Source: Leptospirales bacterium
GTDB lineage: Bacteria; Spirochaetota; Leptospiria; Leptospirales; Leptonemataceae
Reading direction: 5' to 3'
Length of the DNA stretch: 64,000 nt
Assembly (NCBI GenBank): GCA_019694655.1
Contig: JAIBBN010000002.1
Coordinates: 62,001-126,000, forward strand
Of this stretch, positions 6,205 through 32,307 are shown piece by piece (position 1 is the stretch's first letter; the number at the start of each line of letters is the position of its first letter). The position numbers and the translations under genes are program-made. The notes beneath the pieces were generated by a model. The model saw nothing but the letters and a program-made list of their open reading frames with translations, was not told the DNA's origin and did not search any database.

Positions 6205-6239
6205 AAAAAACCCGGAGGCGCAGGACGCACTCCGGGTTT
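6205..6239 (-). terminator. Rho-independent terminator of the phasin-like gene
   Basis: A perfect 10-bp inverted repeat (AAACCCGGAG at 6208-6217 and CTCCGGGTTT at 6230-6239) encloses a 12-base loop. Read on the minus strand the stem is followed by a run of six T (6210-6205). It lies 25 bases beyond the stop codon of the phasin-like gene and before queF, so it ends that transcript. Confidence 0.88.
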
Positions 6240-6263
6240 CCGAAATTCGCTGCTACAGACGAA

Positions 6264-6647: not shown

Positions 6648-6777
6648 CGGGTACCTTCCCTGGGTTTTTGCGTTGCACCAAGTTTTTGTGCGGCGCAACA
6701 TCGGTCAATCCTTTTTGATCGACCGTAGCGAAAAAGGCGACGGGCCCTGTGGCGCGGCAAGCAAAAAGACCGGGCCT

Positions 6778-7737: not shown

Positions 7738-7830
7738 GGGAATACCTGGTGCGACGCTCTGGCCGCTAATGGAAGCAAAAATCAGCGGGAGCGGCTTTAC
7801 GGGCGGCAGGCTGTAATAGATCAAGACCCA

Positions 7831-8676: not shown

Positions 8677-8684
8677 AAGATCCC

Positions 8685-9629
8685 TTACAGCCCCGGAATT
8701 GGCTGCTTCAGGCAGAGCATCAACAGCGCCATACGCACCAGTACGCCGTAGCCGGCCATGCGAAAGTAGGCGGCGTTACCCAGATCGTCCACATCGGTGG
8801 ATAGTTCGTTCACGCGCGGCAGAGGATGCATGATCAGCGTTGGTTTGCGCGACGCTATGACAAACTCGCGATTGATGCTGTAGCTGTTGCGCAGCTTCTC
8901 GTATTCGCTACGATCGACAAAGCGCTCTTCCTGGATGCGCGTTACGTAGGCAACATCGCAATCCCAGATGGCGCGCGGATCTTCCGTTTCTTCAAAGGAG
9001 ATATTGCGCTTGCGCATTTCCTTGCGGTAGGATTCGGGGATGGCCAGGTCTACCGGCGATATCAAGACCAGTTCTGTATTGTAGTTGTAGAGCAGTCGAA
9101 TCAGACTGTGAATTGTTCGCCCAAATTTCAAATCGCCGATGAAGGCAACGCGCAGGCCGTCGGGCAGTCCGCGCTCTTCGGCAATCGTATACAGATCGAG
9201 CAGCGCCTGCGTGGGATGCTGCCCGGCCCCGTCGCCGGCATTGATCACCGGTATCTTTACGGCGGCGGCGGCGACGCGACTGGAGCCTTCCACCGGATGG
9301 CGTATGACGGCAATATCAGAGTAGGCCTCTACCATCTTCATTGTGTCGTAGAGCGTTTCGCCTTTGCTGATGCTGGAAAACTGAAAGCCGACCGTGCTGA
9401 TCACGCGTCCGCCCAAACGTTGCATGGCCGTTTCAAAGCTCAGCCGCGTACGCGTGGATGATTCAAAGAAAAGGGAAGCGAGGATCCGCCCCTGCAGCAG
9501 ACCAAAGGCCTTGCCGCCTGGCATCAGGTCGCGCAGCTTGCGCACCGCCTGCAGCAGATAATCCAGGTCCTCACGGCTGAACTGATCTGCGTCGAGAATA
9601 TTGGTATGAGCGAAGGGCGCCAGGGACAT
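8685..9629 (-). CDS. pyrB: Aspartate carbamoyltransferase catalytic chain
   Basis: Joins carbamoyl phosphate to aspartate, the committed step of pyrimidine synthesis. The carbamoyl-phosphate loop [12 protein letters not shown] is present, as are [34 protein letters not shown] and [10 protein letters not shown], the aspartate-binding HPLPR loop. About 314 residues from the ATG at 9629, the normal size of a catalytic chain. An upstream in-frame ATG at 9671 would add 14 residues with no family match. No pyrI regulatory chain is seen nearby. There is no strong ribosome-binding site before the chosen start. Confidence 0.96.
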
Positions 9630-9725
9630 GCAGGCGGGAGTACGCCAGCCGGCCGGCAGTGCGGCAAACACAATCAGGGTAGAAAGCGCCGCTCTCCATG
9701 GAAAAGGACGGCGGGACTGGCGGCA

Positions 9726-10013
9726 ATGAGCGTCTTATTCCTGCCAGGCGGTGGCTGGCTTCTGGCACGACCTGACCGCGACTGGCCGCCGCCGCGACCA
9801 GTCCTGCGCCCTTTCGATATCGACGATCCGCGTTTCTGCAATCTGAGTCCCGCGCCCTTTCTCTGCCGATCCTGCCTGGCCAGCGGCAAACAGTTTGCAG
9901 AACGAATCGAGTGGCAGGGCGAAGAGCAGCGACCGCTGCGCAGCTATCTCTGCCTGGACTGGCAGGCGCTCTACCTGGGCAGCGCCGGTTCTACTCGCCC
10001 CAGCGATCGTTGA
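9726..10013 (+). CDS. Possible small exported Cys-containing protein
   Basis: A weakly supported small gene filling the 360-base gap between pyrB and the repeat-protein gene. From the ATG at 9726 it encodes 95 residues with a short hydrophobic start ([13 protein letters not shown]), a Pro/Arg-rich stretch ([15 protein letters not shown]) and a CRSC pair ([11 protein letters not shown]). The final 23 bases overlap the repeat-protein gene on the other strand. There is no clear ribosome-binding site and I recognise no family. The alternative is that the gap is non-coding 5' region for pyrB. Confidence 0.35.
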
Positions 10014-10779
10014 GCAGCGCCGGCGTCTGGTCGGGCACTCCGCCATGTTCCAGGCTGTCGAGGATGCCGGCGGGATTCGAGGTATCGCGTGCGGCCGGTC
10101 CCTGGGGCAAAGCCGACTCCAGAGTGATGCCTGCCTGGCGGGGCACGTTAGGCGCCGAAATCATTTCCTGGGCGCACTCGCCTGGCTGGACGCAGATCGT
10201 CCACGGCCCTGTTCGCCGGTCAGCCAGGTACTGGCCTTGCTGATACATCTGGCCGCCAGCATAGTAGTAGGTCCACTGACCTTCGGCGAGATCGTTGTTG
10301 TACGATCCATTGTAGAAGACCTGGCCGCTTTCATAGTAGTTGATCCAGGCGCCCTGGCGTTTTCCGGCGCGGTAGCTGCCGCGCGTTTCCATTTTGCCCG
10401 AGGCATAATAGCTGAGCCATTCGCCCTCGCGCCGGTCGCTGGCATAGTCGCCCTCTGAGCTGAGGCGACCTTGAGCGTCATACAGACGCCAATGACCGTG
10501 CCGTTGATTGGCGCGGAAGGGGCCTTCGGCTTTTTTCTGGCCGCCTGCATAGTAGAAGACCCAGTCGCCCTGGCGTTGATTCCCGCGAAAGTCCCCCTCG
10601 GCCTTTTTGATGCCGTTTTCGTACCAGACGACCTGGCGGTTGCCATTCTGTTCGACCCAGACGCGAGCGCGCTCATCAAAGCGAGCGCCGCTGGTTACGG
10701 CGCCGGGACGCGCCGGTTCGGCGGCAAAAATACTCAGCGGCAAGAGTAGGACTGAGAGCGCAATGGGGATGCGGGGCAT
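9991..10779 (-). CDS. Exported MORN-variant / YwqK-type repeat protein
   Basis: Signal peptide (RIPIALSVLLLPLSIFA) followed, from about residue 55, by six tandem repeats of about 24 residues with the pattern xG.Y.....G.W..YY.SG. Examples are KKAEGPFRANQRHGHWRLYD, METRGSYRAGKRQGAWINYY and VFYNGSYNNDLAEGQWTYYY. This is the MORN_2 / YwqK repeat of spirochaete and Bacteroidetes surface proteins. The label as a toxin-antitoxin component in databases is weakly founded and not adopted here. A Pro/Ala-rich tail of about 60 residues follows the repeats. It lies 76 bases downstream of the dnaA-like gene on the same strand. Confidence 0.85.
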   Translation of the reverse strand: MPRIPIALSVLLLPLSIFAAEPARPGAVTSGARFDERARVWVEQNGNRQVVWYENGIKKAEGDFRGNQRQGDWVFYYAGGQKKAEGPFRANQRHGHWRLYDAQGRLSSEGDYASDRREGEWLSYYASGKMETRGSYRAGKRQGAWINYYESGQVFYNGSYNNDLAEGQWTYYYAGGQMYQQGQYLADRRTGPWTICVQPGECAQEMISAPNVPRQAGITLESALPQGPAARDTSNPAGILDSLEHGGVPDQTPALLNDRWGE

Positions 10780-10855
10780 CGGCTGATCCTCCGTGATCTA
10801 GCTTACCGTACTATGACGGCGAAAACCGCCTGGAGATCAACGGCGCGGCGCAATT

Positions 10856-12175
10856 TTATGCATCCGGCGGGGCGGGCAAAAGGGAGGAATTCTGACAAAC
10901 CCGTTGCCAGAGTTCCGTCAACTGTCGCTGCAGGAATAGATCGCTCTGTAGCTGAGTTTCGATTTTGCGCAGGGCGTGAATCACGCTGCCATGTTCCGCC
11001 CAGCCAAGGGCCCGGGCTGTATCACGCTGCGAGAGGCCCAGGTGTTTTACGCAGAGAAAGGCCGCCATATGCCGGGCCTGGCTAAGACGGCGGCTGCGCG
11101 CCTGGCCGAGCAGGGCGGAAAGCTCGATCTTCAGATGGCTGGCTGTGGTCCGCACTACATCTTCCGCCCGTGCGCCGCTGCCTTGATCAAATAGATCCTG
11201 GCAAAGCGTCTGGCAGGCCTCAAGATCCAAACGCTGCGAACCGCTGTGCGCCAGCCGCAATGCGATCGCCTTAAGCCGACGCAGATCGATCTGCACTCGA
11301 CGCGCCAGCCAGAGTACAAGCGACGCTTCAAGCTGGATTTCATGGCGCAGCAATTCGTTTTCCAGCAATTTGCATCGAGCCTCTTCGCCCAGCGGCGCAA
11401 GCTCTGCCAGCTCGGCGGATTGCAGCCGCGATTGCAGCGCCTCGCTAAGCGATAATTCCGCCGGCCTACGATCGGAACTGAGCAGTAGCGTCCGACCTTC
11501 GCGCAGGCAATGATCGGCAAGATTGCTCAGCTCCTCCTGGCTGCGCGCCGCCTGGGCTTTGATGTATTGGAAGTCGTCAATCGCAATACACTGCAGCTGA
11601 TGCAGGGATCGCCGCCAGGCGACGGTAGCTCGCCGACTGCAGGCCTCGGCAAACTCCGATACAAAGGCCTCCAGAGTATAGCGACGCACGCTCTTTCCGG
11701 AGGATTGCTGTTGATGTAAAATCCAATCGATGGCGGCGCTCTTGCCAGCGCCAACTGGACCCAGAATGATTGCCAGCGGCGGCGGATTCTCTTTGAGCCG
11801 TCGCAAGGTTGTCGCGCTTGTTGTCGGCGGGAAAAACGCCTGCGCCGCTGGTCCTTTGGTCTGATCAGGCACAGCCGGCGGCCGCCGAATCTGGGGACTA
11901 TGTCGGGACGCGCCGGATGCCGCCAAACAAAGCTGGGCCTGCAAATTAAGCCGGGCCGCACACTCATCGATGAGCTTCTGGTGGCGTATCTGAAGGCGGC
12001 GCAGGTCGCGTGGCGCGGCTGTAATCATGATCCGGCCCGGCGCTGCTGCAAATGCAACTTCGGAAAAATCGGCGCGAAAGGCGCGCGAGCCGACGCGCGC
12101 CGCCAGCTCTTGCTCGAAGGCCAGCTCGTCGGAAGAGTTCCCGGACTCGCAAGACAATGCTTGTTGGTTGCTCAT
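10856..12175 (-). CDS. dnaA: Divergent DnaA-type replication initiator homologue
   Basis: All DnaA domains can be followed. From the ATG at 12175 (439 residues): domain I at about 17-80, ending in a RRLQIRHQKLIDECAARL helix; a Pro/Ala/Thr-rich domain II; an AAA+ domain with Walker A GPVGAGKS (139-146), Walker B CIAIDDFQ (196-203) and sensor II in DLRRLKAIALRL; and a domain IV with helix-turn-helix at about 360-406 (RRLSQARHMAAFLCVKHLGL, then GWAEHGSVIHALRKIE). The recognition helix deviates from the usual GxRDHTTVxHAxRKI: Asp is Glu and the first Thr is Gly. dnaN, recF and gyrB are not adjacent. It may be the only dnaA or a paralogue; the window cannot decide. An in-frame ATG at 12220 is less likely. 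Confidence 0.85.
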   Translation of the reverse strand: MSNQQALSCESGNSSDELAFEQELAARVGSRAFRADFSEVAFAAAPGRIMITAAPRDLRRLQIRHQKLIDECAARLNLQAQLCLAASGASRHSPQIRRPPAVPDQTKGPAAQAFFPPTTSATTLRRLKENPPPLAIILGPVGAGKSAAIDWILHQQQSSGKSVRRYTLEAFVSEFAEACSRRATVAWRRSLHQLQCIAIDDFQYIKAQAARSQEELSNLADHCLREGRTLLLSSDRRPAELSLSEALQSRLQSAELAELAPLGEEARCKLLENELLRHEIQLEASLVLWLARRVQIDLRRLKAIALRLAHSGSQRLDLEACQTLCQDLFDQGSGARAEDVVRTTASHLKIELSALLGQARSRRLSQARHMAAFLCVKHLGLSQRDTARALGWAEHGSVIHALRKIETQLQSDLFLQRQLTELWQRVCQNSSLLPAPPDA

Positions 12176-12195
12176 AATCGAATATAAAGAGTAAA

Positions 12196-12201
12196 AGTAT
12201 A
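12196..12201 (-). promoter_or_regulatory. Candidate -10 box for the dnaA-like gene
   Basis: TATACT on the minus strand, 20 bases before the ATG at 12175, inside a strongly AT-rich stretch (12176-12262) that stands out from the GC-rich surroundings. No matching -35 with good spacing was found; TTGATA upstream is only 13 bases away. No Shine-Dalgarno sequence precedes the start. Confidence 0.4.
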
Positions 12202-12223
12202 CAATGAAATATGATATCAATTC

Positions 12224-12262
12224 GACATTATGGATTATGTCTCAAAAGATTATGTCGCAAAA
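12224..12262. repeat. Tandem 15-bp repeats with overlapping dyad upstream of the dnaA-like gene
   Basis: Two directly abutting 15-bp copies, GATTATGTCTCAAAA (12233-12247) and GATTATGTCGCAAAA (12248-12262), match at 14 of 15 bases. The first overlaps an imperfect 18-bp dyad at 12224-12241 (GACATTATGGATTATGTC, 14 of 18 positions symmetric). They lie about 50 bases before the start codon of the dnaA-like gene. They may be binding sites for that protein, either an origin or an autoregulatory operator. The rest of the gap to trxB (12263-12373) shows nothing I can name. Confidence 0.7.
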
Positions 12263-12373
12263 GCGATGTACTCAGGCAGCGTCAAAGCTGCCGGTCATTG
12301 CCGCAAGCGATGTTGCCGCGGTTGAATCGGAAAATTAAGTGGAAAAGGTGCGAGCGGAGAGGTCGCGCCCTGA

Positions 12374-13354
12374 CTACTCTATGCCCTGCGCTTCCAGCCA
12401 GCGTTCGGCATCCAGCGCCGCCATACAACCGCTGCCCGCCGCTGTGATAGCCTGGCGATAGCGTTTGTCCTGCACGTCGCCTGCAGCGAAGACGCCTTCC
12501 ACGCTGGTGCGCGTTGCGCCGGCTTCGGTGTGGATATATCCATCAGCGTCGAGTTGGATCTGGCCAACAAATGGCTCAGTGTTTGGCTTATGACCAATGG
12601 CGTAAAACAGCCCGTTGACCGCCAGCTGGCGTTCAGCGCCGCTGTTAACGTCCCGCACCTGCAAAGAGCGAAGTTGACGCTCATCGCCGGCGGCGGCTAC
12701 GGGGACATGGTTCCAGACGATTTCGATTTTTGAATTCTTCAGCACGCGCTCTTGCATGATCTGCGAAGCGCGCAGTCGATCGCGCCGGTGGATCAAGTAT
12801 ACGCGCGACGCATACTTAGTGAGAAACATACTTTCCTCGGCGGCTGAATCGCCGCCGCCGATTACAGCCAGCGGAGCATCGCGAAACAGGGGGAGGGCCC
12901 CGTCGCAAACAGCGCAGGCGGATATGCCGTGCTGCCAGTAGCGCTCCTCGCCGGGCAGCGCCATGCGTCGGGCGGTGGCCCCGGTTGCAATGATGACGCT
13001 ATGCGCCAGCGTGGGCGCTTCGTCCTCGAGCCCTTCGCGCCATAACTGGAAGGGGCGACGGCTGAAATCAACGCGACTTATAGTCTCAGTATGAATCGCG
13101 GCGCCGAAGCGAAGAGACTGCTTGCGAAACAAATCGGTGAGCTCGACGCCCATGACGCCTTCAGGAAAGCCGGGGAAATTCTCCACTTCTGTCGTGGTCG
13201 TCAGCTGACCGCCAGCAGCAATACCGCCGGCCATAAATCCCTCAAACAGGACAGGGCTCAGGTTGGCTCGCGCTGCGTAAATTGCGGCGGTATGCGCCGC
13301 TGGACCGCTGCCTATGATGACCACCCGATGCGGCTGATTCTGTGCTTCGCCCAT
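12374..13354 (-). CDS. trxB: Thioredoxin reductase
   Basis: FAD/NADPH flavoenzyme that reduces thioredoxin. FAD-binding [16 protein letters not shown] is near the N-terminus, with [16 protein letters not shown] after it. The redox disulfide is CAVCDG (the common form is CATCDG), followed by the NADPH motif [11 protein letters not shown] and HRRDRLRAS. The C-terminal FAD motif is [31 protein letters not shown]. The ATG at 13354 gives 326 residues; an upstream ATG at 13396 is possible. It points away from the peroxiredoxin gene that starts at 13530, so the two share a promoter region and a thiol-redox theme. Confidence 0.96.
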
Positions 13355-21569: not shown

Positions 21570-22094
21570 GTGCTGTTCGATCCGGGATTGAAGGAGCTGC
21601 TCGAACGTGTTCTGCCCAGGCTGGAGCCGTACCTGGCGGTCCGCGAGCGCAGCAGCGGCGAAGTGCGCGATCGTCTGCGACTGCGTAAGCTATGCGAAGC
21701 AGAGGAGCGGGATCGCATCATTGACTATCTGGCCAGCGAAGGGATGATCAATGATCGGCGTTTTACGGCCAATCGCGTTCGCTACCGTCTGGACAACGGA
21801 TATGGTCCGGCCTTTATACGCGATGATTTGCACAAACTGAAAGTGGAACGCGCAGTAGTGGATGAATGTCTGCGCGATCTGGGACCGGAGGCGATTCAGC
21901 TTGCAGCCCAGAAGGCCGCGTTGAAGGCCGCGCGGCAGGCGAGGGATCCGCTGAAACTGGTGGGACGCCTGATGCGGCGCGGTTTTTCGATGAATGATCT
22001 TCGTGGCATTGAAGCGCTTGACGGCCTTCCGGCGGCAATGCGCGATCGAGCTGCGCGCCAGAATCGGCGCCAGCAACCGGAGGACGAATTATGA
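21570..22094 (+). CDS. recX: RecX-family regulator of RecA
   Basis: RecX caps and destabilises RecA filaments. This 174-residue protein has the three-helix repeats of the family: YLAVRERSSGEVRDRLRLRK (the R.RS..E...RL element), IIDYLASEGMINDRRFTANRVRYR (the L...G..DD..FA..YV..R element) and GYGPAFIRDDLHKLKVERAVVDECL. The GTG start at 21570 overlies GAGGAGAGTTGAG. It begins two bases after the methyltransferase stop and overlaps the next gene by four bases. recA itself is 36 kb away at 57993-59156, unlike the adjacent arrangement seen in many bacteria. Confidence 0.85.
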   Translation: MLFDPGLKELLERVLPRLEPYLAVRERSSGEVRDRLRLRKLCEAEERDRIIDYLASEGMINDRRFTANRVRYRLDNGYGPAFIRDDLHKLKVERAVVDECLRDLGPEAIQLAAQKAALKAARQARDPLKLVGRLMRRGFSMNDLRGIEALDGLPAAMRDRAARQNRRQQPEDEL

Positions 22095-22510
22095 TGGAAG
22101 GCGAAATGTCGGCCAGCGCTCCGGAGACAGGGCGTCCCGGCCCGGGGCCCGGATCGCAAGGCCCCGGCAGCGGCACAATGGATGTGCCGGCGGGGTCTTC
22201 ACTGCCGGCGGCAGCCGGCGGCGCTGCGGCCGCCGCTGGAGCAACAGCTACCGCGCTTGCTCGCGACCCCAGGCGCCTTGGACGCGCCGGAAAAATACTC
22301 TGGATCCTTGTGGCGATTCTATCTGGCGCTTACGTCGTCTTCCCTGATCCAACTGACGCCTTGATCCCGATGATGGGACTTGGTCTGGTAGATGACGGAG
22401 TGTTCTTTGGCGTCTTCTTGTATGCACTGGAGCGCCTTGGCATCCACATCCCGATCCTGAGCAAGCTGTTTGGATTGTTCCGACGCAATCGCGGCGGCGC
22501 CGGTAGCTGA
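22091..22510 (+). CDS. DUF1232-like membrane protein
   Basis: Small membrane protein (139 residues). The first 60 residues are a Pro/Gly/Ala-rich linker (RPGPGPGSQGPGSGTMDVPAG). Then come a hydrophobic helix (KILWILVAILSGAYVVF) and the PDPTDALIPMMGLGLVDDGVFFGVFLYAL stretch. The P.D.IPD-type pattern and the LVDD pair are characteristic of the YkvA/DUF1232 family. Function of the family is unknown. The ATG at 22091 overlaps the recX stop (ATGA), so it is translated with recX. Confidence 0.75.
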   Translation: MMEGEMSASAPETGRPGPGPGSQGPGSGTMDVPAGSSLPAAAGGAAAAAGATATALARDPRRLGRAGKILWILVAILSGAYVVFPDPTDALIPMMGLGLVDDGVFFGVFLYALERLGIHIPILSKLFGLFRRNRGGAGS

Positions 22511-22523
22511 GGCTACATTTGCA

Positions 22524-23819
22524 TCAGGGGCGCAAGCGCGGACGATCTGCGGGATAGGTTCGCGGCATCGATCCACTGTAGATCTGCTGTGGACGCATGC
22601 CCTTTTGTTCGTTTTGACGCTGTTCCTGCCAGTGTGCCAGCCAACCGCTCATCTTGCCGATGACGCGAATCACATTGTTCATGTTGGGCGGAATGCCAAG
22701 CAGGTGGAAGATCATCGCCGAATAGAAATCAAGATTCGGATATAGCTTCATCTTCTGAAAGAAGGGATGACCCAGCATATACGATTCAACTTCCAGCGCC
22801 TTTTGGATGATTGGATCGCTGCTGGCTCTTGGATGACTGGCAATATATTCTTTGAAGAGACGACGGCTGAGGATCGCGCGCGGATCTTCAATGCGGTACT
22901 TGCGGTGCCCAAAGGCCGGCGATTGCAGTCGCTCTTCTCCGCGCAGGAAGGGTTCGAAGTAGCGCTCCGCCGTCAGTCCATTGCTGATCATATGCTGCAG
23001 CATTGGGCGCGGCAGCATGCGATAGTTGGCCTCGCGCTGACCCCAGATGGCGGAGATGCCGGCATTGATAGAAACAAACAGATTGGCGCGCGTGCTGCCG
23101 ACCATGACGACGGTGGAGGTGGCGACGTTTTGCTCATGGTCGCTGTACAATATCAAGATTTGATTCAGGATGCGTTCATCTTCGGGAGCGACCTGCGTAT
23201 CGCCGGAGGGAACGGCAAACATCATGTTCAGGAAGTTGGAGCAGTAGGGCAATTCATCGCGGGGATAGATGACGGGCTGCCCGATGGATTTCTTGTAGGC
23301 CCAGGCGGCCAGGGTGCGCACTTTTGCCAGCAGACGCGCCTTGACGTCAATGCCCATCTTGAAGTGGTCCTCGTAGCTGTGCGGGTAGTAGCTGGAAAGC
23401 GCGGTTACCATCGTAGCCAGGATTGCCAGCGGGTGCGCATCGCCCGGAAAGGCGTCGAAAAAGTTGCGCATCGATTCATGGATCATCGAATGCCGCGACA
23501 ATGAGCGCGAGTACTCTTCGTATTCCGCTTCACTGGGCAGCTCGCCGCCGGCCAGCAAATAGGAGGTTTCGACAAAAGAAGAGCGCTCCACAAGGTCAGC
23601 AACATCGTAGCCGCGATAGTGCAGCTTTCCCGACGGATCAACCCAGGTGATTGAACTTTGCGTAACGGCGGTGCTGTTGAGTGAAGGATCGTAGGAATAG
23701 CGGCCGCTTTGTGTGAACAGTTCGCTGAAATCGATGCCTCCCGGACCAGCAACCGATTCCACAATGGGAAATTCATAGGACTTCCCGTCCATGGTAAGTG
23801 TGGCGCGACGAGACTGCAT
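22524..23819 (-). CDS. gltA: Citrate synthase homologue lacking the HGGAN catalytic loop
   Basis: Type-II (long) citrate synthase fold, 431 residues from the ATG at 23819 (a TTG at 23855 is possible). It matches from ITWVDPSGKLHYRGYDVADL through YSDHEQNVATSTV (226 on), GSTRANLFVSINAGISAIWG, AFGHRKY (302-308) and LDFYSA (363-368). So the FGHR His and the DFYS Asp are present. But the loop normally reading PLHGGAN, which carries the third catalytic residue (His264 in E. coli numbering), is QREAN here (261-265). The reading frame is intact around it, so this is not a frameshift. It may be inactive, altered in mechanism, or lineage-specific. The gene is monocistronic, converging with the DUF1232 gene. 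Confidence 0.85.
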   Translation of the reverse strand: MQSRRATLTMDGKSYEFPIVESVAGPGGIDFSELFTQSGRYSYDPSLNSTAVTQSSITWVDPSGKLHYRGYDVADLVERSSFVETSYLLAGGELPSEAEYEEYSRSLSRHSMIHESMRNFFDAFPGDAHPLAILATMVTALSSYYPHSYEDHFKMGIDVKARLLAKVRTLAAWAYKKSIGQPVIYPRDELPYCSNFLNMMFAVPSGDTQVAPEDERILNQILILYSDHEQNVATSTVVMVGSTRANLFVSINAGISAIWGQREANYRMLPRPMLQHMISNGLTAERYFEPFLRGEERLQSPAFGHRKYRIEDPRAILSRRLFKEYIASHPRASSDPIIQKALEVESYMLGHPFFQKMKLYPNLDFYSAMIFHLLGIPPNMNNVIRVIGKMSGWLAHWQEQRQNEQKGMRPQQIYSGSMPRTYPADRPRLRP

Positions 23820-23885
23820 GGCAGCATGGCCGCTGCCTGCAACGGGCGAGGTCAATCGAAATCCAGAGCCCGGGGCCTCTGGCGC

Positions 23886-25958
23886 TTAGCGACGACGCGC
23901 AAAGCGCGCGCGCAGATAAGCGCCCAGCTCGCCCATGGTCATACGCGCGTGAAATCGAGGCAGGGGAGGCGAGGCCTGCCCGCCGGAACCCCTCGCGGAA
24001 CTCAAAGCCAGCGCTTCTGGAGTTCCGGCCGGAGAAAGCGAATCGCTCTGGCGAGGTCGAATGAAGATTTGATCCACGGCCTGCCGACTTTCGCCAGGGA
24101 GGGCGTCCGGCAATTCGCCGGTCAGCTCAATGTCGATGCGCAGGAATTTTCGGTTGATAATGCTGACCTCCATTTGCCCGGCAAGGATTCGGATGATCTC
24201 GCGAACGATCGCCCACTTCACCCATAGCTGTCCGCGCTCCACTGCCGGATCAGTAAGAATGTCATAGAGGTGACGGGTTTGCTTTACGTTATTGTGGAAG
24301 AGCATGAATCGAAAGTGAACATGAGCCTTGAGGTCGGAGGTGATGATCAAATCGATGTTGCGATAGTCCTTAAAGCCAGGAAAGTCAATCAGTCGAATGA
24401 CCAGCGAATTGACCAGCTCAAGGCTGGTGTTCAAGACAATGGCAGGGTGCACCTTTACATGGTGCGTGATGACTCCCTGTGGAATCACTGCCGTAATAAA
24501 GTCACGAAAGTTCACCTTTTCCAGGAATTCCGGCTCGGAAATCACTTCCAGGCGCGAAAGTTCCAGGATATCATCCAGGTTGCTCTGCAGATCGTCTACT
24601 GCAGCGCTCAGCGTTGCGCTTTTTTCATTCCAGCTGCGGCGATCGTCCACTGATTGCAGCGCCTGCTGGATGCCAGCTATCAGCTCGCGCGCTGGATTGC
24701 GTACAAAAGTGAAGATGTAGGCGAAGACCCTGTCGCGCAGGGCATTGACGGAGTCCAGACGTCGGCTGCGTCGATCGACTTCCATCTGCAAATCAATCAG
24801 GCGGTAGGTTAAGGCAAAGGCGGTGATCAGAATAAAACTGAGAACGCCTTCGCTGAAATAGTGCGGGCCTTCGACAAGCCCGCGTTCCACCGCAAAAAAG
24901 TGCACGGTGGCCAGCATCATCACTGCCAGCGCCAGAGACAGAAGGATGGCATCGCGCTGCAGCCTTTTTAATGCCCTGGCAAAAGCATCTCCTGCAAAGT
25001 AGACAAAAAAGGGCAGATTCAAAGGAAACCAGACGGAAATGATACCATCCCAGCGCACCGGGTTCATGGTCAGAAGAATGGCCGCCGCCGCCGCGCCGCT
25101 GATCAAAGCGTAGATCAGTCCAGGCGTCCGCGGCCGAAATTCCACGCGCCGCTCGCCGAAGCCGATGACGATGGCTTGCGCCTTGAAAAAGCTGATGTGA
25201 AAAAGAAAGTAAACCAGCGGGCTGGCGACATAGCAAAGCTGTTCCAGCAGCTTGAAAGTGAGGAAGGAGTCCCACAGACTGAAGCGGGATTCGTTGACCA
25301 AAAATTGCTGCAATCCGAGAAGCGCTGCGAGAATGCCAAACCAGCGAAACTCGCGCAACTCCGGCAGTTTGAAGTGCAAGACTGAAAAAAATATCCCAAC
25401 CGCTAGATACAGTCCGGCGAAGGTCAACAGCTGGATCTGGGAGCGCCAGAAATTCCACTGCGCACTTTCGGTCTCGTCGATTACCGGAGCGCCTCGCAGA
25501 CCCAGGCTATTCGAAAACTGTCCTTGAATCTTGATGGCTAGAACATTCCGTCCGCTCTGCAGCAGAACTGCGGGAAGCCCGTAGAGACGGGGGCGACCGT
25601 ATCCGCGCAGGCCCGACTGTGCGGCGCTGCCAATCAATTGTCCATTCAAGTAGACTTCGTCCGTATCGTAGACCGGTCCCAGGTGCAACGCAAGATTTAC
25701 GTCGCGGGGCGCGCTCAAGGAGAGCTCGCAGCGCAGCCACAGCGGCTGCCCGGAACGTGCGCCGGCGCGGGCCAAATTGGCCGGCAGATGAATTTGCTTC
25801 CAGCCGCGATCATCCAGGCTCGGGTCGCTGGCGCCCGGCAGGTCATGGTCTAAAAAACGCCAATCGTTGAGCTCGACGCGATAACGATCGTCCGCCTGCA
25901 GGGCGCCGCCGGCATAGAAGGTCAGCGCCGCAACGAGGAGCAGCCGCCTTGGGCTCAT
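23886..25958 (-). CDS. 7TM DISM sensor protein with degenerate kinase module
   Basis: A 690-residue membrane receptor. Signal peptide, then an extracellular beta-sandwich of the sugar-binding / DISM type (LGPVYDTDEVYLNGQLIGS, YGLPAVLLQSGRNVLAIKIQGQF; about 25-165), then about seven membrane helices (about 175-385). The cytoplasmic part resembles a histidine kinase only faintly: RRSRRLDSVNALRDRVFAYIFTFVRNP stands where the phospho-acceptor helix should be and has no His. A late AIVREIIRILAGQ segment recalls the ATPase but the D.G.G and G.G.G boxes are missing. So it is probably a pseudokinase. It overlaps the upstream sensor gene by four bases (ATGA). Confidence 0.82.
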   Translation of the reverse strand: MSPRRLLLVAALTFYAGGALQADDRYRVELNDWRFLDHDLPGASDPSLDDRGWKQIHLPANLARAGARSGQPLWLRCELSLSAPRDVNLALHLGPVYDTDEVYLNGQLIGSAAQSGLRGYGRPRLYGLPAVLLQSGRNVLAIKIQGQFSNSLGLRGAPVIDETESAQWNFWRSQIQLLTFAGLYLAVGIFFSVLHFKLPELREFRWFGILAALLGLQQFLVNESRFSLWDSFLTFKLLEQLCYVASPLVYFLFHISFFKAQAIVIGFGERRVEFRPRTPGLIYALISGAAAAAILLTMNPVRWDGIISVWFPLNLPFFVYFAGDAFARALKRLQRDAILLSLALAVMMLATVHFFAVERGLVEGPHYFSEGVLSFILITAFALTYRLIDLQMEVDRRSRRLDSVNALRDRVFAYIFTFVRNPARELIAGIQQALQSVDDRRSWNEKSATLSAAVDDLQSNLDDILELSRLEVISEPEFLEKVNFRDFITAVIPQGVITHHVKVHPAIVLNTSLELVNSLVIRLIDFPGFKDYRNIDLIITSDLKAHVHFRFMLFHNNVKQTRHLYDILTDPAVERGQLWVKWAIVREIIRILAGQMEVSIINRKFLRIDIELTGELPDALPGESRQAVDQIFIRPRQSDSLSPAGTPEALALSSARGSGGQASPPLPRFHARMTMGELGAYLRARFARRR

Positions 25959-27886
25959 CGCGCCTGTTTCTCCGGAACGCGCAGGGTCAGGGTTGAAAAG
26001 TAGCCGCCGCCCTCGAGCTTGATTTCTCCCTCAAGAACATCAGCAATTTCACGGACAATGGTCAGACCGACGCCGCTACCGGGAGGCGCAGAGTCATCGT
26101 CTGGAGTATTGCGGACAAATTTCTGAAATACCGCCTGCTGCTGATGTGCGTTCATGCCTGGACCTTCATCGCGCACCTGCAGCAATAGCTGGCCGCCGAT
26201 GCGCTCCGCGCCGACCTCAACTTTGCCCGTGGAATACAGCAGCGCATTTTCCACCAGGTGGTAGAGCGCGGCGGCCAGCAGCTCGGCGTCGCTTTCCGCC
26301 TCGTTTTCTTCATCGGGCAGTTTGCTTCGAATTCGGCTCTGCGGTTGCTCAGTCGCCAGCAAGGCCCGGGCAATCTGCTCCGCGACGAGTTTGTTCAGGC
26401 TGAAGCGGCCGAGCCGCGGATGGTACTCTCCGGATTCCAGCAAATGAAGAAGTCGACTGTCCTGAACCAGGTTGTCCAGGTTCAGCGCTGAAGAGCGCAG
26501 TCGATCGTGAGCGCCGCTTCGATTTCCACGTTTCCTTGACGATTCCTCGGCGCCCAGACCTTCGCGCAGTCCGCTGAGTATGGCCGTAAACTCGCTTGAT
26601 ATGTTGAATATGGATCGCGTCTTCCGTTTTTCCAGCAGCCGCAACTCTTGCTCCTGCTCCTTGATATTGCCGTAGAGCTGCAGTATCGTATCCGAAAGCT
26701 GCAACGATGCAAAGAGCAAGAAAGCGGCAAAGCCGTATACCAAGAGCCTGGGATAGGGGTGAATATTGAGCGTGGACAAAATGTCCCAGACAACTACTGG
26801 CAGCAGCACAACAAATCCAACCAGCAAAAAGCGCAGCCGATCGCGGTGCGCAGCATAATTGCGCAAGAAGGTCCACGCAGTCAGCGCCAGCGCGGCGACA
26901 ATCAAAACGAGATTGATATTGATCAGGAGTTTCCACGCGCGGGCGCTGGCGCCAAACAGAAGATCGCCGGTGAGGAGCAGTGCGTAGGCGCCATACAGCG
27001 CCAGGACCGGCAATTTGCGCCGCGCATTTGTTGCATGATGCAGGTACTCCAGAAAAAATACCGGCAAAGAGAACAACAGCGCCAGCTCCGTCTTGTAGGA
27101 TGCAACGAAGCTATCAAACCACTCGTAGCGGATTTGCGTACGAATCAAATTGTACATCCCAAGCGAGAGGGAGAAGAGTGCGAAATAGAGATTGGCCTGC
27201 TGCCTCCAGAAAAACAAATAGAACAACCCAAAGAAGGCTGCCACCAGCACGTAGCTCCAGCTGAAGACAATAGTCGGCAGGTCGCGAAGCGCCAGAGTTT
27301 TTGCCTGGGACAGCTGATCTACGAGACGTGGTTCGAAGCGCAGCCCGCCGTCGCCAGTCGTCGCAAAAACCCGAATGGCAATCACGTTCGGTCCTTCTTG
27401 CCAGAGCGTAGCGGGCAGGGCGTACAATCGTCGGCGCTCAATATCAACGCGACGTCCGGCAAGCGATCCTGTTTCGCCAACCTGAACGCCATTGAAGAAC
27501 ACGGCGTCGGCCTCTTCGATTGAATCCAGGAACAGGGCGGCGCCTGCGGGAGGCGGTCCGGCAAGCTGGATGCGGCAGCGTAAGAAGACGCTGAGTCCCT
27601 GGGCCGGCGGTTTGAGTTTCAACGCCCGGAAATCGGCGGGTGCGGCCGCCAGGCGCCAGGCGCTATCGTCGAATTCGACGCGCGTCCAGTCTGCCGGAAT
27701 TTCCTGGGCGCCCGGTGCGCTCTGCAAGCGCCATGCGCCGGCAAGAGAGAGTGCGCTTTGACCGTCGCTCAACTGCGCCTCGGGGCAAGCAGCGGATAGG
27801 CCAACTGGCGCTGCACAGAGCGCCGCCAGGGCCAGGAGCCACGTCAGCGGTCCGCCTGGCAAGGATGCTGAGCGACAGCGGGGCAT
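25955..27886 (-). CDS. 7TM DISM sensor with HATPase domain but no phospho-acceptor His
   Basis: 643 residues from the ATG at 27886; an ATG at 27919 is an alternative. Signal peptide, extracellular beta-sandwich (FLDSIEEADAVFFNGVQVGETG, LYALPATLWQEGPNVIAIRVF; about 35-190), seven membrane helices (about 205-400), a short coiled coil, then a kinase-like module. The ATPase is intact: LVENALLYSTG (N box, about 545), VRDEGPGMN (G1, about 573) and GSGVGLTIVREIADVLEG (G2, about 603). The acceptor helix reads FNISSEFTAILSGL, where the usual H-E-L-R-T-P-L is S-E-F-T-A-I-L, so His is replaced by Ser431. It overlaps the second sensor by four bases and lies 50 bases after rsgA. Confidence 0.85.
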   Translation of the reverse strand: MPRCRSASLPGGPLTWLLALAALCAAPVGLSAACPEAQLSDGQSALSLAGAWRLQSAPGAQEIPADWTRVEFDDSAWRLAAAPADFRALKLKPPAQGLSVFLRCRIQLAGPPPAGAALFLDSIEEADAVFFNGVQVGETGSLAGRRVDIERRRLYALPATLWQEGPNVIAIRVFATTGDGGLRFEPRLVDQLSQAKTLALRDLPTIVFSWSYVLVAAFFGLFYLFFWRQQANLYFALFSLSLGMYNLIRTQIRYEWFDSFVASYKTELALLFSLPVFFLEYLHHATNARRKLPVLALYGAYALLLTGDLLFGASARAWKLLININLVLIVAALALTAWTFLRNYAAHRDRLRFLLVGFVVLLPVVVWDILSTLNIHPYPRLLVYGFAAFLLFASLQLSDTILQLYGNIKEQEQELRLLEKRKTRSIFNISSEFTAILSGLREGLGAEESSRKRGNRSGAHDRLRSSALNLDNLVQDSRLLHLLESGEYHPRLGRFSLNKLVAEQIARALLATEQPQSRIRSKLPDEENEAESDAELLAAALYHLVENALLYSTGKVEVGAERIGGQLLLQVRDEGPGMNAHQQQAVFQKFVRNTPDDDSAPPGSGVGLTIVREIADVLEGEIKLEGGGYFSTLTLRVPEKQAR

Positions 27887-27936
27887 TGCCTGTCCATTAT
27901 CGGTTGGGCGAGGGTGCATTTTTGATCGTCCGCCGC

Positions 27937-29058
27937 TTATTCGCCGCCCTGGAATCCGCGCAGTTTGCCGCTGCGCACCCGGCCGGTGGCCCGAATGTAG
28001 TCGCCCATCCGGATACGGTCGATCAATCCGTGATTCGATAGCATCAGCGCCAGCGAGTGGTAGCGCTCCGGGTGAACCAACTCCGCCTCAAAGGGCGGCA
28101 GGCTTTGCTCGAGCGCGGCATCCTCGCGCTCAGGATCCTGATAGTAATCCAGCGCTCGCTGGCGCGAGAGTTGCAATCGCTGCTGCAACTGACAGCCCCG
28201 CGATTCCGGCAGGTGTTGACAATCGTGGAATTCGCATTCATCAGCGAGGGAGCGGAGTTCTGGAAAACTCAGCAGAATCTGCTCACGGCTCAGATGGTGG
28301 ATGCCCCACTCGCGAACCCCCGGCGTATCAATCAGGCGACAGCGGTCAAAGAGATGCAGCGCCGCGTTGGTCGTGGTATGTCGACCTTTGCCGGTGGCCG
28401 CACTGATTTCGCCGATGCGTTGCAGCGGTCGTCCTGCGAGGCTATTCAGCAACGTTGATTTGCCAGCGCCGGAGTGTCCGGCCAAAAGCGTAGTGCAATT
28501 GCAAAGACGGGACTTAAGCTCTTCGAGCACTGGCTGCCACTGCGCGCCGCCGCGCGCATCAAGTCGCCAAACTGGATAGCAAAGTTTGCGGTAAACCTCA
28601 ATCATGACCTCAATGTCCGGCGAATCTTCGGCGATCTGATCGGTCTTGGTGAATACAATGCCAGCCGGCACGCCCGCTTCGCTGGCAGAGGCCAGGAAAC
28701 GATCCACGAATCCCCAGCGTGGCGGCGGACTCGCCAGGCTGAGCACAACCAGCGCCAGATCCAGATTGGCGCCAAGCGACTGCAGCTCGCGACCGGCGCC
28801 GCGATAAAGAACGTTGCGCCGCGGCAGCAAATCTGTAATCCAGGCTTCCTTCTCCCCTGGCGGCAGCGCATAGCGTACTTCATCGCCAACTGCCAGACGG
28901 TGACGTTCGCGAAAGTCAGCGCGCGATTCCCGTTCGGCATGGGGCAAACGCAAACGCCCCCGCGGGCGAGCTCGGTACTCGGTCGTCAATTCTGGCAGGC
29001 ACAGCAGGGAATAGTAGGCCCCGTAGACGCAGCTGATCAGCGCCAATGGATCACTCAT
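27937..29058 (-). CDS. rsgA: Ribosome small-subunit maturation GTPase RsgA (circularly permuted)
   Basis: Late 30S assembly GTPase. After an OB-like domain come the permuted GTPase motifs: G4 (VFTKTD), G1 LLAGHSGAGKSTLLNSLAG, the switch GKGRHTTTNAAL, and G3 LIDTPGVREWGI. The C-terminal zinc finger is ECEFHDCQHLPESRGC. The ATG at 29058 overlaps the stop of the upstream lipoprotein gene by eight bases; earlier starts at 29091 and 29130 exist. About 373 residues, normal for RsgA. It lies between the lipoprotein and the two DISM sensors in a leftward gene run. Confidence 0.95.
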   Translation of the reverse strand: MSDPLALISCVYGAYYSLLCLPELTTEYRARPRGRLRLPHAERESRADFRERHRLAVGDEVRYALPPGEKEAWITDLLPRRNVLYRGAGRELQSLGANLDLALVVLSLASPPPRWGFVDRFLASASEAGVPAGIVFTKTDQIAEDSPDIEVMIEVYRKLCYPVWRLDARGGAQWQPVLEELKSRLCNCTTLLAGHSGAGKSTLLNSLAGRPLQRIGEISAATGKGRHTTTNAALHLFDRCRLIDTPGVREWGIHHLSREQILLSFPELRSLADECEFHDCQHLPESRGCQLQQRLQLSRQRALDYYQDPEREDAALEQSLPPFEAELVHPERYHSLALMLSNHGLIDRIRMGDYIRATGRVRSGKLRGFQGGE

Positions 29059-29443
29059 CGGGCGCTCGCGTCCATCGCCGCGGTAGGTCATCAGTTCGTA
29101 GCTCGCGCAGCGCGCCTGCATCCAATTCAAGGATTCGTTCTTCCGGAACTCCGCCCTCGCCAGCCGGATTCAACTGCAGCAGCCAGGCGCCGTCGCTGCG
29201 CCGGCGCATGCTGACGATATCAAAAACCAGCGATTGAGAACCCTGGCGGCGTTCCAGCGCCGGAGCTGGCGGCGGCCGAAAGATCAACTCCTGATCAGCG
29301 CTTTGCCAGCGGCCCAGAAATTCTCGCGGCGGATACAGCCGTCCCCCGCTGATTGAGACTGCCGGCGGCTGTCGCTCGACGACGCAAGCGGCCAGCAGGA
29401 CAAGCAGGCCAAGTGCGGCAACATTGCGAGAAATGGCGAGCAT
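29051..29443 (-). CDS. Small putative lipoprotein, function unknown
   Basis: 130 residues from the ATG at 29443, chosen because it opens a lipoprotein signal peptide (ISRNVAALGLLVLLAAC) with Cys17 as the modification site; the longer open frame upstream has no family-like content and overlaps the divergent kinase gene. The mature part is short strands and loops (LYPPREFLGRWQSADQELIFRP, SLVFDIVSMRRRSDGAWLLQLNP). No known domain recognised. The stop overlaps the rsgA start, so the two are probably cotranscribed. Confidence 0.65.
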   Translation of the reverse strand: MLAISRNVAALGLLVLLAACVVERQPPAVSISGGRLYPPREFLGRWQSADQELIFRPPPAPALERRQGSQSLVFDIVSMRRRSDGAWLLQLNPAGEGGVPEERILELDAGALRELRTDDLPRRWTRAPDE

Positions 29444-29524
29444 GGTTCTTTGCCTCGGAATTGCGGCCCGGGATTGCATCCTGTAAACCATATTTTCAAC
29501 ATGGCGTCCGAGGGGAATGGCGGA

Positions 29525-31141
29525 ATGAATCTCGATCAGTTCAAGCGCGAACTCATTCAGATACGGCCGACGCGCGAGGTTTGCGGCATTCTCTTGCGTT
29601 TCCTGGAAGAGCAAACCGATGCTCGTCGCTGCGGAATCTGTCTCTGGGATGAGGGCAGCGGCGCCTTCGAGGTTTTTCCGGAGGGTTCTGCGCCTGTCCA
29701 TCGCTTCATGGTTTTTGATCCGTTTCTGCTGCATATTTCAGATGACGATCGGATCTACTGGCGCGGCCAGATTGATAGCCTTCCGTGGTCCGCCGGCTGC
29801 AGCGCCCAGGATGCATTGCGCTTTATGGATGCGTTGCAGGCCGATCTGGTGCTGCCCCTGGCGCTCAATCAGTCCCTGGTTGGCGCAGTCTTCCTGCAGT
29901 TGAAAGCCGAAATCATCGTCGAAGAGACGCGCCAGCGTCTGGAAGCGGCAATTACCGAGGGGCGATCGCTGGCTGCAATGGCGCTTTCCAACTCGATTCT
30001 CTACGCCCGGCTGGAGGGAATTCTCGGTCACCTGGAAGAAAAGGTGCGGGAGCGCACTCGCGAATTGGAGACAGCGCAATCGCAGCTGGTGCAATCAGAA
30101 AAAATGGCAATGCTGGGCGTCATGTCGGCAGGCGTGGCGCACGAGATCAACACGCCTGCCAGCGTCATTCAAGGCGGCCTGGAGAATCTGCGTAAGAACC
30201 TGGATCGTATCATTGATGGCGCCCTGCATCTGAGCGAGAGCTTCAGTGAAGATCGCCGAACGCAGAGCTTTCGCGCCATACGTCTGGCGGCGGCGATGGC
30301 CCAGGGCGAGCTGCGTGCGCCGCGCGACGCTTTCCGGCGCAAACGCGAATTGAGCGCACTGCTGCAGCAGGCGGCCTTGCCGCGCGCCGCAGAATTTTCG
30401 GCGCTTTTTGTGGAAAGCGGACTCAGCGCCGCCGCCGGCGGCGACCCCAATACGTTTGATGCCTTGCTGCAGTCGGATTTGATTGCCGCTCTACAGGCGG
30501 CATTGTCCGGCGCCAGCGATGATGAATGTTCGCGTCTCTATGCACTGCTGGCCGAAGCGGTTCACGCCGCGCGCAATCTGGATAACAGTTCGCGCGCCGT
30601 GCGCAGTGTCAGTCGCATTGTGCGGGCGCTGAAGCATTACTCGCATCTGGATCAAAGCGCTCAGTTGGACATCGATATCCACGATGGCATTGAAAACACC
30701 CTGGTAATTGTTGGCAGCGTAATGCGCGGGACCGTGCAGCTGGAACGCCACTTCAGCGAAGTTCCGCTGGTCTCCGGCAATCCGGACGAACTGAACCAGG
30801 TTTGGACGAACCTCCTGACCAACGCTTACCAGGCATTGAAAGGCGCCCGCGACGCAACCATTGTGATAACAACCCGCGAAGCACAATTGTGGGGCGCGTC
30901 CGCTGTCCAGGTCAGTATTGCCGACAACGGTCCTGGAATTGCGCCGGATATTCTCTCGCGAATCTGGGATCCCTTTTTCACAACCAAGGATCAAGGCGAG
31001 GGCAGCGGACTGGGACTTGGTATTGTCAAGGGCATCGTCGAGAAGCACAAGGGACGGATTGAAGCGCGTTCAACGCCAGGCGCCGGCGCCGAATTCATTG
31101 TCAGCCTGCCGGCTGCGTCCTCTGCCAATCAGTCGACTTGA
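29525..31141 (+). CDS. Soluble GAF-type sensor histidine kinase with long insert in the dimerisation domain
   Basis: 538 residues from the ATG at 29525, preceded by AGGGG. Residues about 1-165 form a GAF-like sensor; 165-195 a coiled coil (LEEKVRERTRELETAQSQLV). The acceptor is GVAHEINTPASVI with His206. The ATPase has GNPDELNQVWTNLLTNAYQAL (N box), ADNGPGIAPDIL and GSGLGLGIVKGI. Between the acceptor helix and the helix RSVSRIVRALKHYSHL lie about 130 extra residues. No membrane segment is visible, so it is cytosolic. No response regulator is adjacent; the partner is elsewhere. Its last 13 bases overlap rlmI on the other strand. Confidence 0.9.
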   Translation: MNLDQFKRELIQIRPTREVCGILLRFLEEQTDARRCGICLWDEGSGAFEVFPEGSAPVHRFMVFDPFLLHISDDDRIYWRGQIDSLPWSAGCSAQDALRFMDALQADLVLPLALNQSLVGAVFLQLKAEIIVEETRQRLEAAITEGRSLAAMALSNSILYARLEGILGHLEEKVRERTRELETAQSQLVQSEKMAMLGVMSAGVAHEINTPASVIQGGLENLRKNLDRIIDGALHLSESFSEDRRTQSFRAIRLAAAMAQGELRAPRDAFRRKRELSALLQQAALPRAAEFSALFVESGLSAAAGGDPNTFDALLQSDLIAALQAALSGASDDECSRLYALLAEAVHAARNLDNSSRAVRSVSRIVRALKHYSHLDQSAQLDIDIHDGIENTLVIVGSVMRGTVQLERHFSEVPLVSGNPDELNQVWTNLLTNAYQALKGARDATIVITTREAQLWGASAVQVSIADNGPGIAPDILSRIWDPFFTTKDQGEGSGLGLGIVKGIVEKHKGRIEARSTPGAGAEFIVSLPAASSANQST

Positions 31142-32307
31142 ATCAGAAGGCCTTTGAGGTATTCTCCCTCCGGGTGAAAAAGACTGAAAGGATGATCCGC
31201 TGCGGCGGTCAGCCGCTGTATTACGCGCGCCTCGCGTCCGGAATCGCGCGCCGCCTGAAACAATACCTTCTGAAAGAGATCCGGCGTCACGTACTGCGAA
31301 CAGGAATAGGTGAACAGAAAGCCGCCGGGCGCCAGCCTGCGCAGCGCCTGCAGATTGATTTCACGATAACCGCGCAACGCTTGATCGAGCGCCGCCCGCG
31401 TTCTGGCGAAGGCCGGCGGATCAAGCGAGATCAAATCAAAGGACTCGGCCGACTCGCGCAGCCAGGCCAGGGCGTCGGCGCGGACCACGTGGTGGCGACT
31501 TTCATCGCCAAAGTTCTCCCGGACGTTGCGCTGGCAGTCTTCCAGGGCCCGCGGCGAAGCATCCAGAGAGAGCGCTGCACTGGCCCCGCCGCGCAGCGCA
31601 TGCAGGCTGAAACTGCCGGAGTAGCAAAAGGCATCCAGGGTTCTCCGCCCCGAGGCATAACGCTCAAAGATTTTTCGATTTTCCTTCTGGTCCAGGTAGA
31701 AACCGGTTTTCTGGGTGTGCAGAAGATCCAACAAATAGCGGAAGCCGTTTTCTTCGATCACGATTTCGTCGGGCGTCGGGCCAAACAGACTCTGCGTTCG
31801 CTTTTCTGTCCGCCGTTCCTCGCCGCTACGATCAAGGATGCAATCGATAGCCAGCGCGCCGCGCAGAAATTCGACCACCGTCTGCGCGCAGGAGATCATC
31901 GCGCTTTCGCGAAACTGAACGGCGGCGCAGGCGCCCAGGATATCGACGATCAGTCCAGGCAGTCCGTCGCTCTCTGCATTGCACAGCCGAAATGCCCGCG
32001 GCTGATGATCGGGCTGCGCTTGCCGAAATTGTAGCGCCCGTGTGAGGCGCGATTGCCAGAGTTCATTGATTGGCGGCAAGGGCCCTTCGCCAAAAAGGAA
32101 CATGCGGCAGGCAAGGCTGGCCTCTGGATGAAAGAAGCCGTAGCCGAGGCTCTTGCCTTCTGCGCTTTGAACGGCGACGATTGCGCCATCGGCCGCCGGC
32201 GGCGAGCGACGAACAGCGCCTGAAAATATCCAGGGATGACGGTCGAGGATGGAGCGTTCCCGACCGGGGCGCAAAATCAATGGCGGCGCATCGCCGGGTT
32301 CCTCCAA
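31129..32307 (-). CDS. rlmI: 23S rRNA (cytosine) methyltransferase, RlmI family
   Basis: SAM-dependent rRNA methyltransferase with an N-terminal PUA domain. PUA is LILRPGRERSILDRHPWIFSGAV; then YGFFHPEASLACRMF, SDGLPGLIVDILG, and the methyltransferase motifs LHTQKTGFYLDQKENRKIFERYASGRRTLDAFCYSGSFSLHA. Motif IV is FDLISLDPPAFARTR, and FLFTYSCSQYV holds the catalytic Cys. 392 residues, normal for RlmI/RlmK-type enzymes. It begins two bases after the glpK stop, so both are on one transcript. Exact target base not determined from sequence. Confidence 0.93.
   Translation of the reverse strand: MEEPGDAPPLILRPGRERSILDRHPWIFSGAVRRSPPAADGAIVAVQSAEGKSLGYGFFHPEASLACRMFLFGEGPLPPINELWQSRLTRALQFRQAQPDHQPRAFRLCNAESDGLPGLIVDILGACAAVQFRESAMISCAQTVVEFLRGALAIDCILDRSGEERRTEKRTQSLFGPTPDEIVIEENGFRYLLDLLHTQKTGFYLDQKENRKIFERYASGRRTLDAFCYSGSFSLHALRGGASAALSLDASPRALEDCQRNVRENFGDESRHHVVRADALAWLRESAESFDLISLDPPAFARTRAALDQALRGYREINLQALRRLAPGGFLFTYSCSQYVTPDLFQKVLFQAARDSGREARVIQRLTAAADHPFSLFHPEGEYLKGLLIQVD

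Follow-up and report, generated by a model that had tools for sequence, protein, structure and literature searches.

DivL, RetS, RcsD and a ChrS variant are the described proteins closest to the subject of this work: two adjacent genes, A and B, in a 64,000-nucleotide stretch of Leptospirales bacterium DNA (GenBank assembly GCA_019694655.1, contig JAIBBN010000002.1, positions 62,001 to 126,000; hereafter, the window), each encoding a seven-transmembrane (7TM) receptor of the DISM type that carries a histidine kinase fold without the phospho-acceptor His. RetS is likewise a DISM receptor. DivL has been described as sensing DivK~P with a repurposed kinase fold and as binding an ATP analogue weakly (PMC4211667), RetS as having a degenerate HATPase domain without G boxes and as inhibiting GacS by three described mechanisms (PMC5992135), and a pseudokinase variant of ChrS in Corynebacterium as heterodimerising with the paralogous kinase HrrS (PMC9491836). 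A structural preprint on RcsC/RcsD (PMC13317618) proposes that the active and the inactive kinase are homodimers joined in heterotetramers rather than a 1:1 heterodimer.

A and B resemble each of these systems in part. Like DivL, they combine the folds of a dimerization and histidine phosphotransfer (DHp) domain and a catalytic and ATP-binding (CA) domain in the absence of an acceptor His, and DivL (4q20) is the top structural match of both; in DivL, the kinase module is kept for binding and not for catalysis (PMC4211667). However, DivL is a single protein that senses by PAS domains and has a conserved Tyr where the His would be, whereas A has a variable residue in this place (N, S, Q, A or R), 7TM-DISM sensors and an adjacent, more degenerate sister, B. 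B shares with RetS a degenerate HATPase without G boxes; however, RetS keeps the transmitter phosphatase motif HExxT and receiver domains, while B lacks both an acceptor His and a receiver and is coupled to a partner, A. RcsD resembles a kinase, sits in the membrane, has an inactive kinase domain and works with a similar protein (PMC13317618); by contrast with A and B, which both lack a His relay site, RcsD has a histidine phosphotransfer (HPt) domain and RcsC is an active kinase. The ChrS variant is also an inactive kinase partnered with a paralogue (PMC9491836), but it is a mutant evolved in the laboratory and its partner is active, whereas A and B are both acceptor-less and this state is ancient. 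In these papers, each of the four pseudo-histidine kinases (DivL, RetS, RcsD and the ChrS variant) works on or together with an active partner; here, both coupled receptors are acceptor-less across an order. In the titles and abstract openings of the licensed PubMed Central literature, we found no coupled DISM pair in which both acceptor His residues are lost. The comparison of orthologous sequences supports the idea that A and B are both pseudo-histidine kinases and that the pair is old and has been kept as a pair.

Results

The two genes and their parts are laid out in the window as follows.

25955-27919, minus strand: gene A, DISM-7TM receptor with a DHp and a complete CA (HATPase) domain, without acceptor His; 654 amino acids
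27305-27784, minus strand: extracellular beta-sandwich of A (residues 46-205), like a GH2 sugar-binding domain; strands in the model
26684-27292, minus strand: 7TMR-DISM_7TM block of A (residues 210-412), Pfam PF07695; helices in the model
26414-26683, minus strand: DHp-like helical hairpin of A (residues 413-502), from profile alignment, model and fold matches
26594-26596, minus strand: Ser442 codon of A, in the place of the phospho-acceptor His
25970-26401, minus strand: CA domain of A (residues 507-650), in which all of the N, G1, F and G2 boxes are kept; PF02518, E 9.6e-17
25955-25958, minus strand: ATGA, overlap of the A stop and the B start, translational coupling
23886-25958, minus strand: gene B, DISM-7TM receptor with a DHp-like hairpin and a pseudo-CA domain without ATP boxes; 690 amino acids
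25479-25889, minus strand: extracellular GH2-like jelly-roll sandwich of B (residues 24-160)
24783-25472, minus strand: 7TM block of B (residues 163-392)
24537-24782, minus strand: DHp-like hairpin of B (residues 393-474), with invariant D463, E466, L467, R469, L470 and E471
24708-24710, minus strand: Thr417 codon of B, in the place of the phospho-acceptor His
24117-24527, minus strand: pseudo-CA domain of B (residues 478-614), HATPase fold without ATP boxes
23889-24116, minus strand: C-terminal tail of B (residues 615-690), low-confidence linker and short basic helix

An earlier description made from the letters of the DNA (the sequence-only reading), in which A starts at a second in-frame ATG at 27886, had proposed two receptors of like sandwich and 7TM design that overlap by four bases, the first with a complete HATPase domain and Ser in the acceptor place, and the second without ATPase boxes as well as without the acceptor. 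All of these points were borne out. A profile-profile alignment of the A family with the B family spans both proteins through the DHp and CA domains (probability 100, E 4.9e-47), and the 7TM block of B aligns along its full length with that of A. In Pfam, A matches 7TMR-DISM_7TM with 41.7 bits (cut-off, 29) and HATPase_c with E 9.6e-17, and HisKA is unmatched. B scores 26.9 bits for 7TMR-DISM_7TM when searched alone, i.e., below the cut-off of 29, and 30.4 bits in a six-frame search; besides this weak match, it has one chance-level sugar-binding match and no kinase domain. The extracellular sandwiches of both proteins are GH2 sugar-binding-like, with 7TMR-DISMED unmatched in Pfam up to E 10; at the sequence level, the profiles of A and B match chains of GH2 enzymes or sialate esterases. 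Neither protein has a Pfam match to PAS (up to E 10), to Response_reg or to HPt. NCBIfam gave generic kinase matches far under the cut-offs for A and one match at E 0.061 for B, and PADLOC gave a weak match to the HATPase region of A only.

A and B were modelled as single chains with AlphaFold2 (mean predicted local distance difference test score 81.3 and 78.4, respectively). DivL (4q20) is the best Foldseek match of both models (E 1.3e-12 for A and 1.6e-7 for B), with ordinary kinases such as HK853 close behind in both lists. Residues 391-616 of B superimpose on the HprS kinase core (Z 15.9, root-mean-square deviation 3.6, 214 residues aligned), and the extracellular domain of B on the GH2 sugar-binding jelly roll 5uj6_B (Z 18.0, root-mean-square deviation 2.4, 134 residues aligned). 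From this predicted fold, carbohydrate sensing by the extracellular domains is plausible. In the extracellular part of A, Cys45, just outside the sandwich, and Cys115 are invariant and may form a disulfide; they are not among the conserved residues of B. The C terminus of B consists of a poorly predicted linker and a short basic peptide end in 19/19 family f1 sequences (net charge +2 to +5), and is rich in Lys, Pro and Phe instead in family f2. We rejected the idea that the basic helix at this end is an amphipathic anchor to the membrane, as the helical moment was not above that of shuffled sequences at the 0.05 level in any of the 19 family f1 tails.

Several lines of evidence support the loss of the acceptor in both proteins. 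First, the profile-profile alignment sets Thr417 of B on Ser442 of A, i.e., on the His position, and Phe526 of B on Asn558 in the N box of A. Second, the His column of 26 A orthologues holds N in 10, S in 8, Q in 5, and A, R and H in 1 each, so that His is missing in 25/26, and none of the 26 B rows has His; Tyr is absent from this column in both families. This tally includes two contig-end fragments (L112 and L113) that were excluded from the analyses of identity, site conservation and nonsynonymous substitution (dN). The residues next to the column in A are S441 (26/26), E443 (24/26) and F444 (25/26). Third, a hidden acceptor, i.e., another His whose phosphorylation would have overturned the sequence-only reading, was rejected because the orthologue alignments show no conserved His in the DHp of A or B; the only conserved cytoplasmic His residues are His554 in the N box of A and His548 of B, both within the CA folds. 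Thr417 of B was rejected as a phospho-site because its position is not conserved. The sole A orthologue with a His in the acceptor place (L105, 6345-8270, in genome G022) has intact ATP boxes and lacks the RTPL continuation.

The ATP boxes have fared differently in the two families. In the A orthologue alignment, N558 of the N box, D584, G586 and G588 of G1, and G614, G616 and G618 of G2 are invariant. B has none of the N, G1, F and G2 boxes: Phe526, which is invariant, replaces the Asn of the N box, and other residues stand at the G2 glycines. The dead CA domain of B is nevertheless the best-conserved domain of the pair. Mean pairwise identity among B orthologues is 50.1% in the CA domain, 35.2% in the extracellular part, 25.9% in the 7TM block, 34.8% in the DHp and 20.7% in the tail; the corresponding values for A are 38.5% (CA), 36.4% (extracellular), 37.0% (7TM) and 33.8% (DHp). 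Sites that are at least 88% conserved number 30/137 in the CA domain of B vs. 11/230 in its 7TM block. Finally, dN is lowest in the CA domain among five B regions in 8 of 9 close species pairs, the exception being L089/L090, where it is lower in the DHp. Only dN was used, as synonymous rates were saturated or undefined and dN/dS ratios thus mostly unusable. Neither the conservation of the dead CA domain nor the paralogous pairs described below, in which A' has the His and B' is fused to a cyclase, had been noticed in the sequence-only reading.

The sequence-only reading had pointed to relatives as the place to look for conservation of the pair, and there the pair is conserved. The genome search covered 48 genomes of the class, i.e., 30 of the order of the window (families f1 and f2) and 18 others, with presence called at E 1e-90 for A and 1e-60 for B. 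A is present in 26 and B in 25 of the 30 genomes of the order, essentially as a single-copy pair, including genomes of 2.3-2.4 Mb (G014 and G017); at the same cuts, neither was found in the 18 class genomes outside the order. Outside the order, among 392 genomes of the phylum, matches to B cover the extracellular and 7TM parts only. G009 and G028 have B fragments, and in each a gene is cut by a contig end. In all 24 loci that hold both genes (one fetched stretch each), A lies directly before B; the junctions are overlaps of 4 nucleotides (15 loci) or 1 nucleotide (5 loci), or gaps of 1 nucleotide (1 locus) or 3 nucleotides (3 loci), with the junction of the f2 locus L108 requiring a TTG start and L093 having further starts. 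Because His is absent from 25/26 A and 26/26 B rows and the genes are adjacent in 24/24 loci, chance is excluded. Recent decay confined to the present genome, against which the sequence-only reading had to be guarded, is likewise rejected by the order-wide conservation of the pair and of the His loss. A related-locus search with the B alignment returned 20 named relatives, all metagenome-assembled genomes and mostly labelled Leptospiraceae, Leptospirales, Spirochaetia, Spirochaetales or Spirochaetaceae, with two labelled "bacterium" only; the related-locus search with A alone found none. A weak Azospirillum match from the B-alignment search (L137) was dropped, as the locus has no open reading frame matching A or B.

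Three more tandem pairs, A' and B' (L114-L116), occur in two genomes of genus g4, which belongs to the same family as the window. They resemble A and B in gene order and domains, in a B' without His and ATP boxes (Q or E in the His place, 3/3), and in descending from the same duplication by the tree. They differ from A and B in that A' has HisKA with the His and a full HATPase (3/3), and in the fusion of B' with a second membrane block, with GAF domains and with a class III nucleotide cyclase (3/3). In a tree of the DISM and DHp part, A and A' form one group (99/95), B and B' another (98/93). Because of this grouping and because A' has the His, the tandem duplication predates the duplication of the pair, with B dead early and the acceptor of A lost later. 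The pair probably began as a kinase A that had the His, beside a dead B. The A tree explains the distribution of His and non-His residues by two changes (His was lost twice, or was lost once and regained in G022); with the topology of the DISM and DHp tree, a loss-only history needs more than two. One of the paralogous loci (L114, G003:C71:84000-97896, positions 1290-13009) is a stacked receptor array in which four DISM genes follow one another: first two DISM kinases that contain a VHDLKNP motif, then A' (4-nucleotide overlap of each with the next), and last the B'-GAF-class III cyclase of ~2000 amino acids.

The genome of the window has 26 DISM-7TM matches, and the 24 besides A and B were scanned with Pfam; cytoplasmic parts were read by eye only for the kinase-like ones. 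Five are DISM hybrid kinases that match HisKA and contain the motif SHE[LI][RK]TP (L014, L016, L018, L022 and L023). By eye, L005 and L024 have an LHD-type His motif, which we take to be HisKA_3-like. L003, L017 and L026 have PAS and HATPase_c_2 without HisKA. Among the HisKA-like DISM proteins examined in the genome, the acceptor is missing only in A and B.

The pair has the following neighbours.

27937-29130, minus strand: RsgA-type GTPase, upstream neighbour, PF03193; conserved beside the pair in family f1 loci
22524-23855, minus strand: citrate synthase, downstream neighbour, PF00285; conserved beside the pair in family f1 loci
29450-31141, plus strand: histidine kinase with intact His and no DISM domain; syntenic in family f1, not tied to the pair

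Family f1 pairs thus sit between the RsgA-type GTPase and citrate synthase. Beyond RsgA, the divergently placed kinase with the intact His is found in 17/18 f1 pair loci and in none of the f2 pair loci; its orthologues also occur in nine f3 genomes, which lack the pair, and in two f2 genomes, where they and the pair are on different contigs. The sequence-only reading had named a nearby orphan HPt or HisKA protein as something to look for. An intact HisKA kinase is indeed nearby; however, because it is linked to the pair in f1 only and occurs without the pair, it looks like a case of synteny, and we rejected it as a dedicated partner. In six f2 loci (L101, L102, L104, L106, L107 and L112), the gene preceding A falls into a single similarity group, which Pfam identifies as polyphosphate kinases in L101, L104 and L106.

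Discussion

Pseudo-histidine kinases as such are already known. What is notable here is a conserved, coupled receptor pair of which both members are dead, with the strongest conservation in the dead CA domain. We suggest that A and B would be co-translated subunits of one sensory complex in the cell envelope. Each would sense by its GH2-like, probably carbohydrate-binding sandwich and its DISM 7TM block and, as sequences and models suggest, the signal would then travel along a coiled hairpin of the DHp type. The binding or turnover of ATP in the CA domain of A would most likely set the conformation of a shared DHp bundle. The pseudo-CA domain of B, being under more constraint than any other domain of the pair, most likely serves as a protein-binding output surface, which may dock on the DHp/CA part of A and/or on a third signalling protein, such as a response regulator, a true kinase or some other effector. 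The output would be allosteric rather than phosphotransfer; the pair probably signals by touching partners and not by passing phosphate. The strict constraint on the ATP site of A together with its drifting acceptor position, as read from the alignments, fits ATP acting as a switch in the complex. We give about even weight to the proposal that A and B form a phosphotransfer-free, co-translated receptor complex in which A is ATP-gated and the pseudo-CA domain of B is a docking surface. More tentatively, and short of thinking it probable, we suggest a heteromeric 7TM receptor in which the ATP-bound pseudokinase A gates B, whose ATP-less GHKL domain would be a dedicated output module, such that the two-component machinery is kept as a shape only and both subunits are dead.

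Some observations weigh against a phosphotransfer-free complex. Genomes G007, G008 and G010 (91% complete) have neither gene at the cuts used, and the complex is thus not universal. In G025, A and B are on separate contigs (L102 and L103), with A midway along a 54 kb contig; the operon seems to be split there, and the genes are thus not always in one operon. The A protein of G022 has both the His and intact ATP boxes, and the pair in this genome may therefore still hold a kinase. No neighbour is common to the f1 and f2 pair loci, which gives no hint of a fixed partner. Finally, the homodimers proposed for RcsC and RcsD in the preprint (PMC13317618) count against a simple 1:1 heterodimer of A and B.

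Alternatively, the pair may modulate a separate two-component system and, without an output of its own, switch a true kinase or response regulator elsewhere. RetS-GacS and DivL-DivK are models for this type of function: DivL is the top fold match of A and B, and RetS, with a degenerate HATPase lacking G boxes, inhibits GacS (PMC5992135). The five DISM hybrid kinases with intact His in the genome are possible targets. However, no partner gene travels with the pair, and the nearby His kinase is linked to it in one family only and occurs without it. We regard a pure modulator as rather unlikely; moreover, it would be a special case of the phosphotransfer-free complex and not its opposite.

The invariance of all catalytic boxes in A, which is more than bare ATP sensing might need, and the His in its relative L105 fit a scenario in which A is still a protein kinase that uses its CA domain to phosphorylate a His in a third protein (an HPt protein or another kinase), with B as the specificity subunit. 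We consider this improbable. The DHp of A lacks the acceptor as well as the RTPL continuation, no HPt or HisKA partner gene is conserved at the pair loci, and in known HisKA kinases the acceptor lies in the same dimer. The sequence-only reading had offered two interpretations, a heterodimer with ATP binding as a switch or trans-phosphorylation of a third protein. It is partly supported, in that A and B are pseudokinases by sequence, the pair is old and the ATP site of A is constrained; trans-phosphorylation found no support, as the nearby HisKA kinase is present at 17/18 f1 and 0 f2 loci and also without the pair.

It is very improbable that A autophosphorylates on a residue other than His, e.g., on Ser441, in the manner of GHKL-type serine kinases. 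Ser441 is invariant (26/26); however, a Ser precedes the acceptor His in 8/8 His-bearing outgroup kinases and the Ser in A may therefore be a relic, and the His place itself is not a conserved Ser. That the pair is decaying and functionless, as the loss of the acceptor His in both proteins and of the ATP boxes in B might suggest, is barely credible given the order-wide retention, including in genomes of 2.3-2.4 Mb, the invariant ATP boxes of A and the lowest dN in the dead CA domain of B (8/9); provided that the orthology is right, conservation refutes it.

For the phosphotransfer-free complex, the finding that the domain with the fewest enzymatic residues is the most constrained makes the pair a testable case of a kinase fold turned signalling scaffold. 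Natural controls are available in the paralogous pair with its His-bearing A' and in the one A orthologue that still has the His.

Additional observations

No Rfam family was found in 22000-32000, and there were no internal repeats of note. A promoter scan of 22000-30000 gave 2 sites, which is not above chance (mean of 2.7 in shuffled sequences). On contig C26 of the same genome, a minus-strand DISM gene (L024, 823-2784) encodes a kinase-like cytoplasmic end with an HD motif and, seemingly, no G1 box; Pfam finds no kinase domain in it. The genome also has a second coupled DISM pair on C16 (14205-16223 and 16220-18190; L009 and L019), in which the genes overlap by 4 nucleotides and both proteins have SpoIIE-type phosphatase domains.

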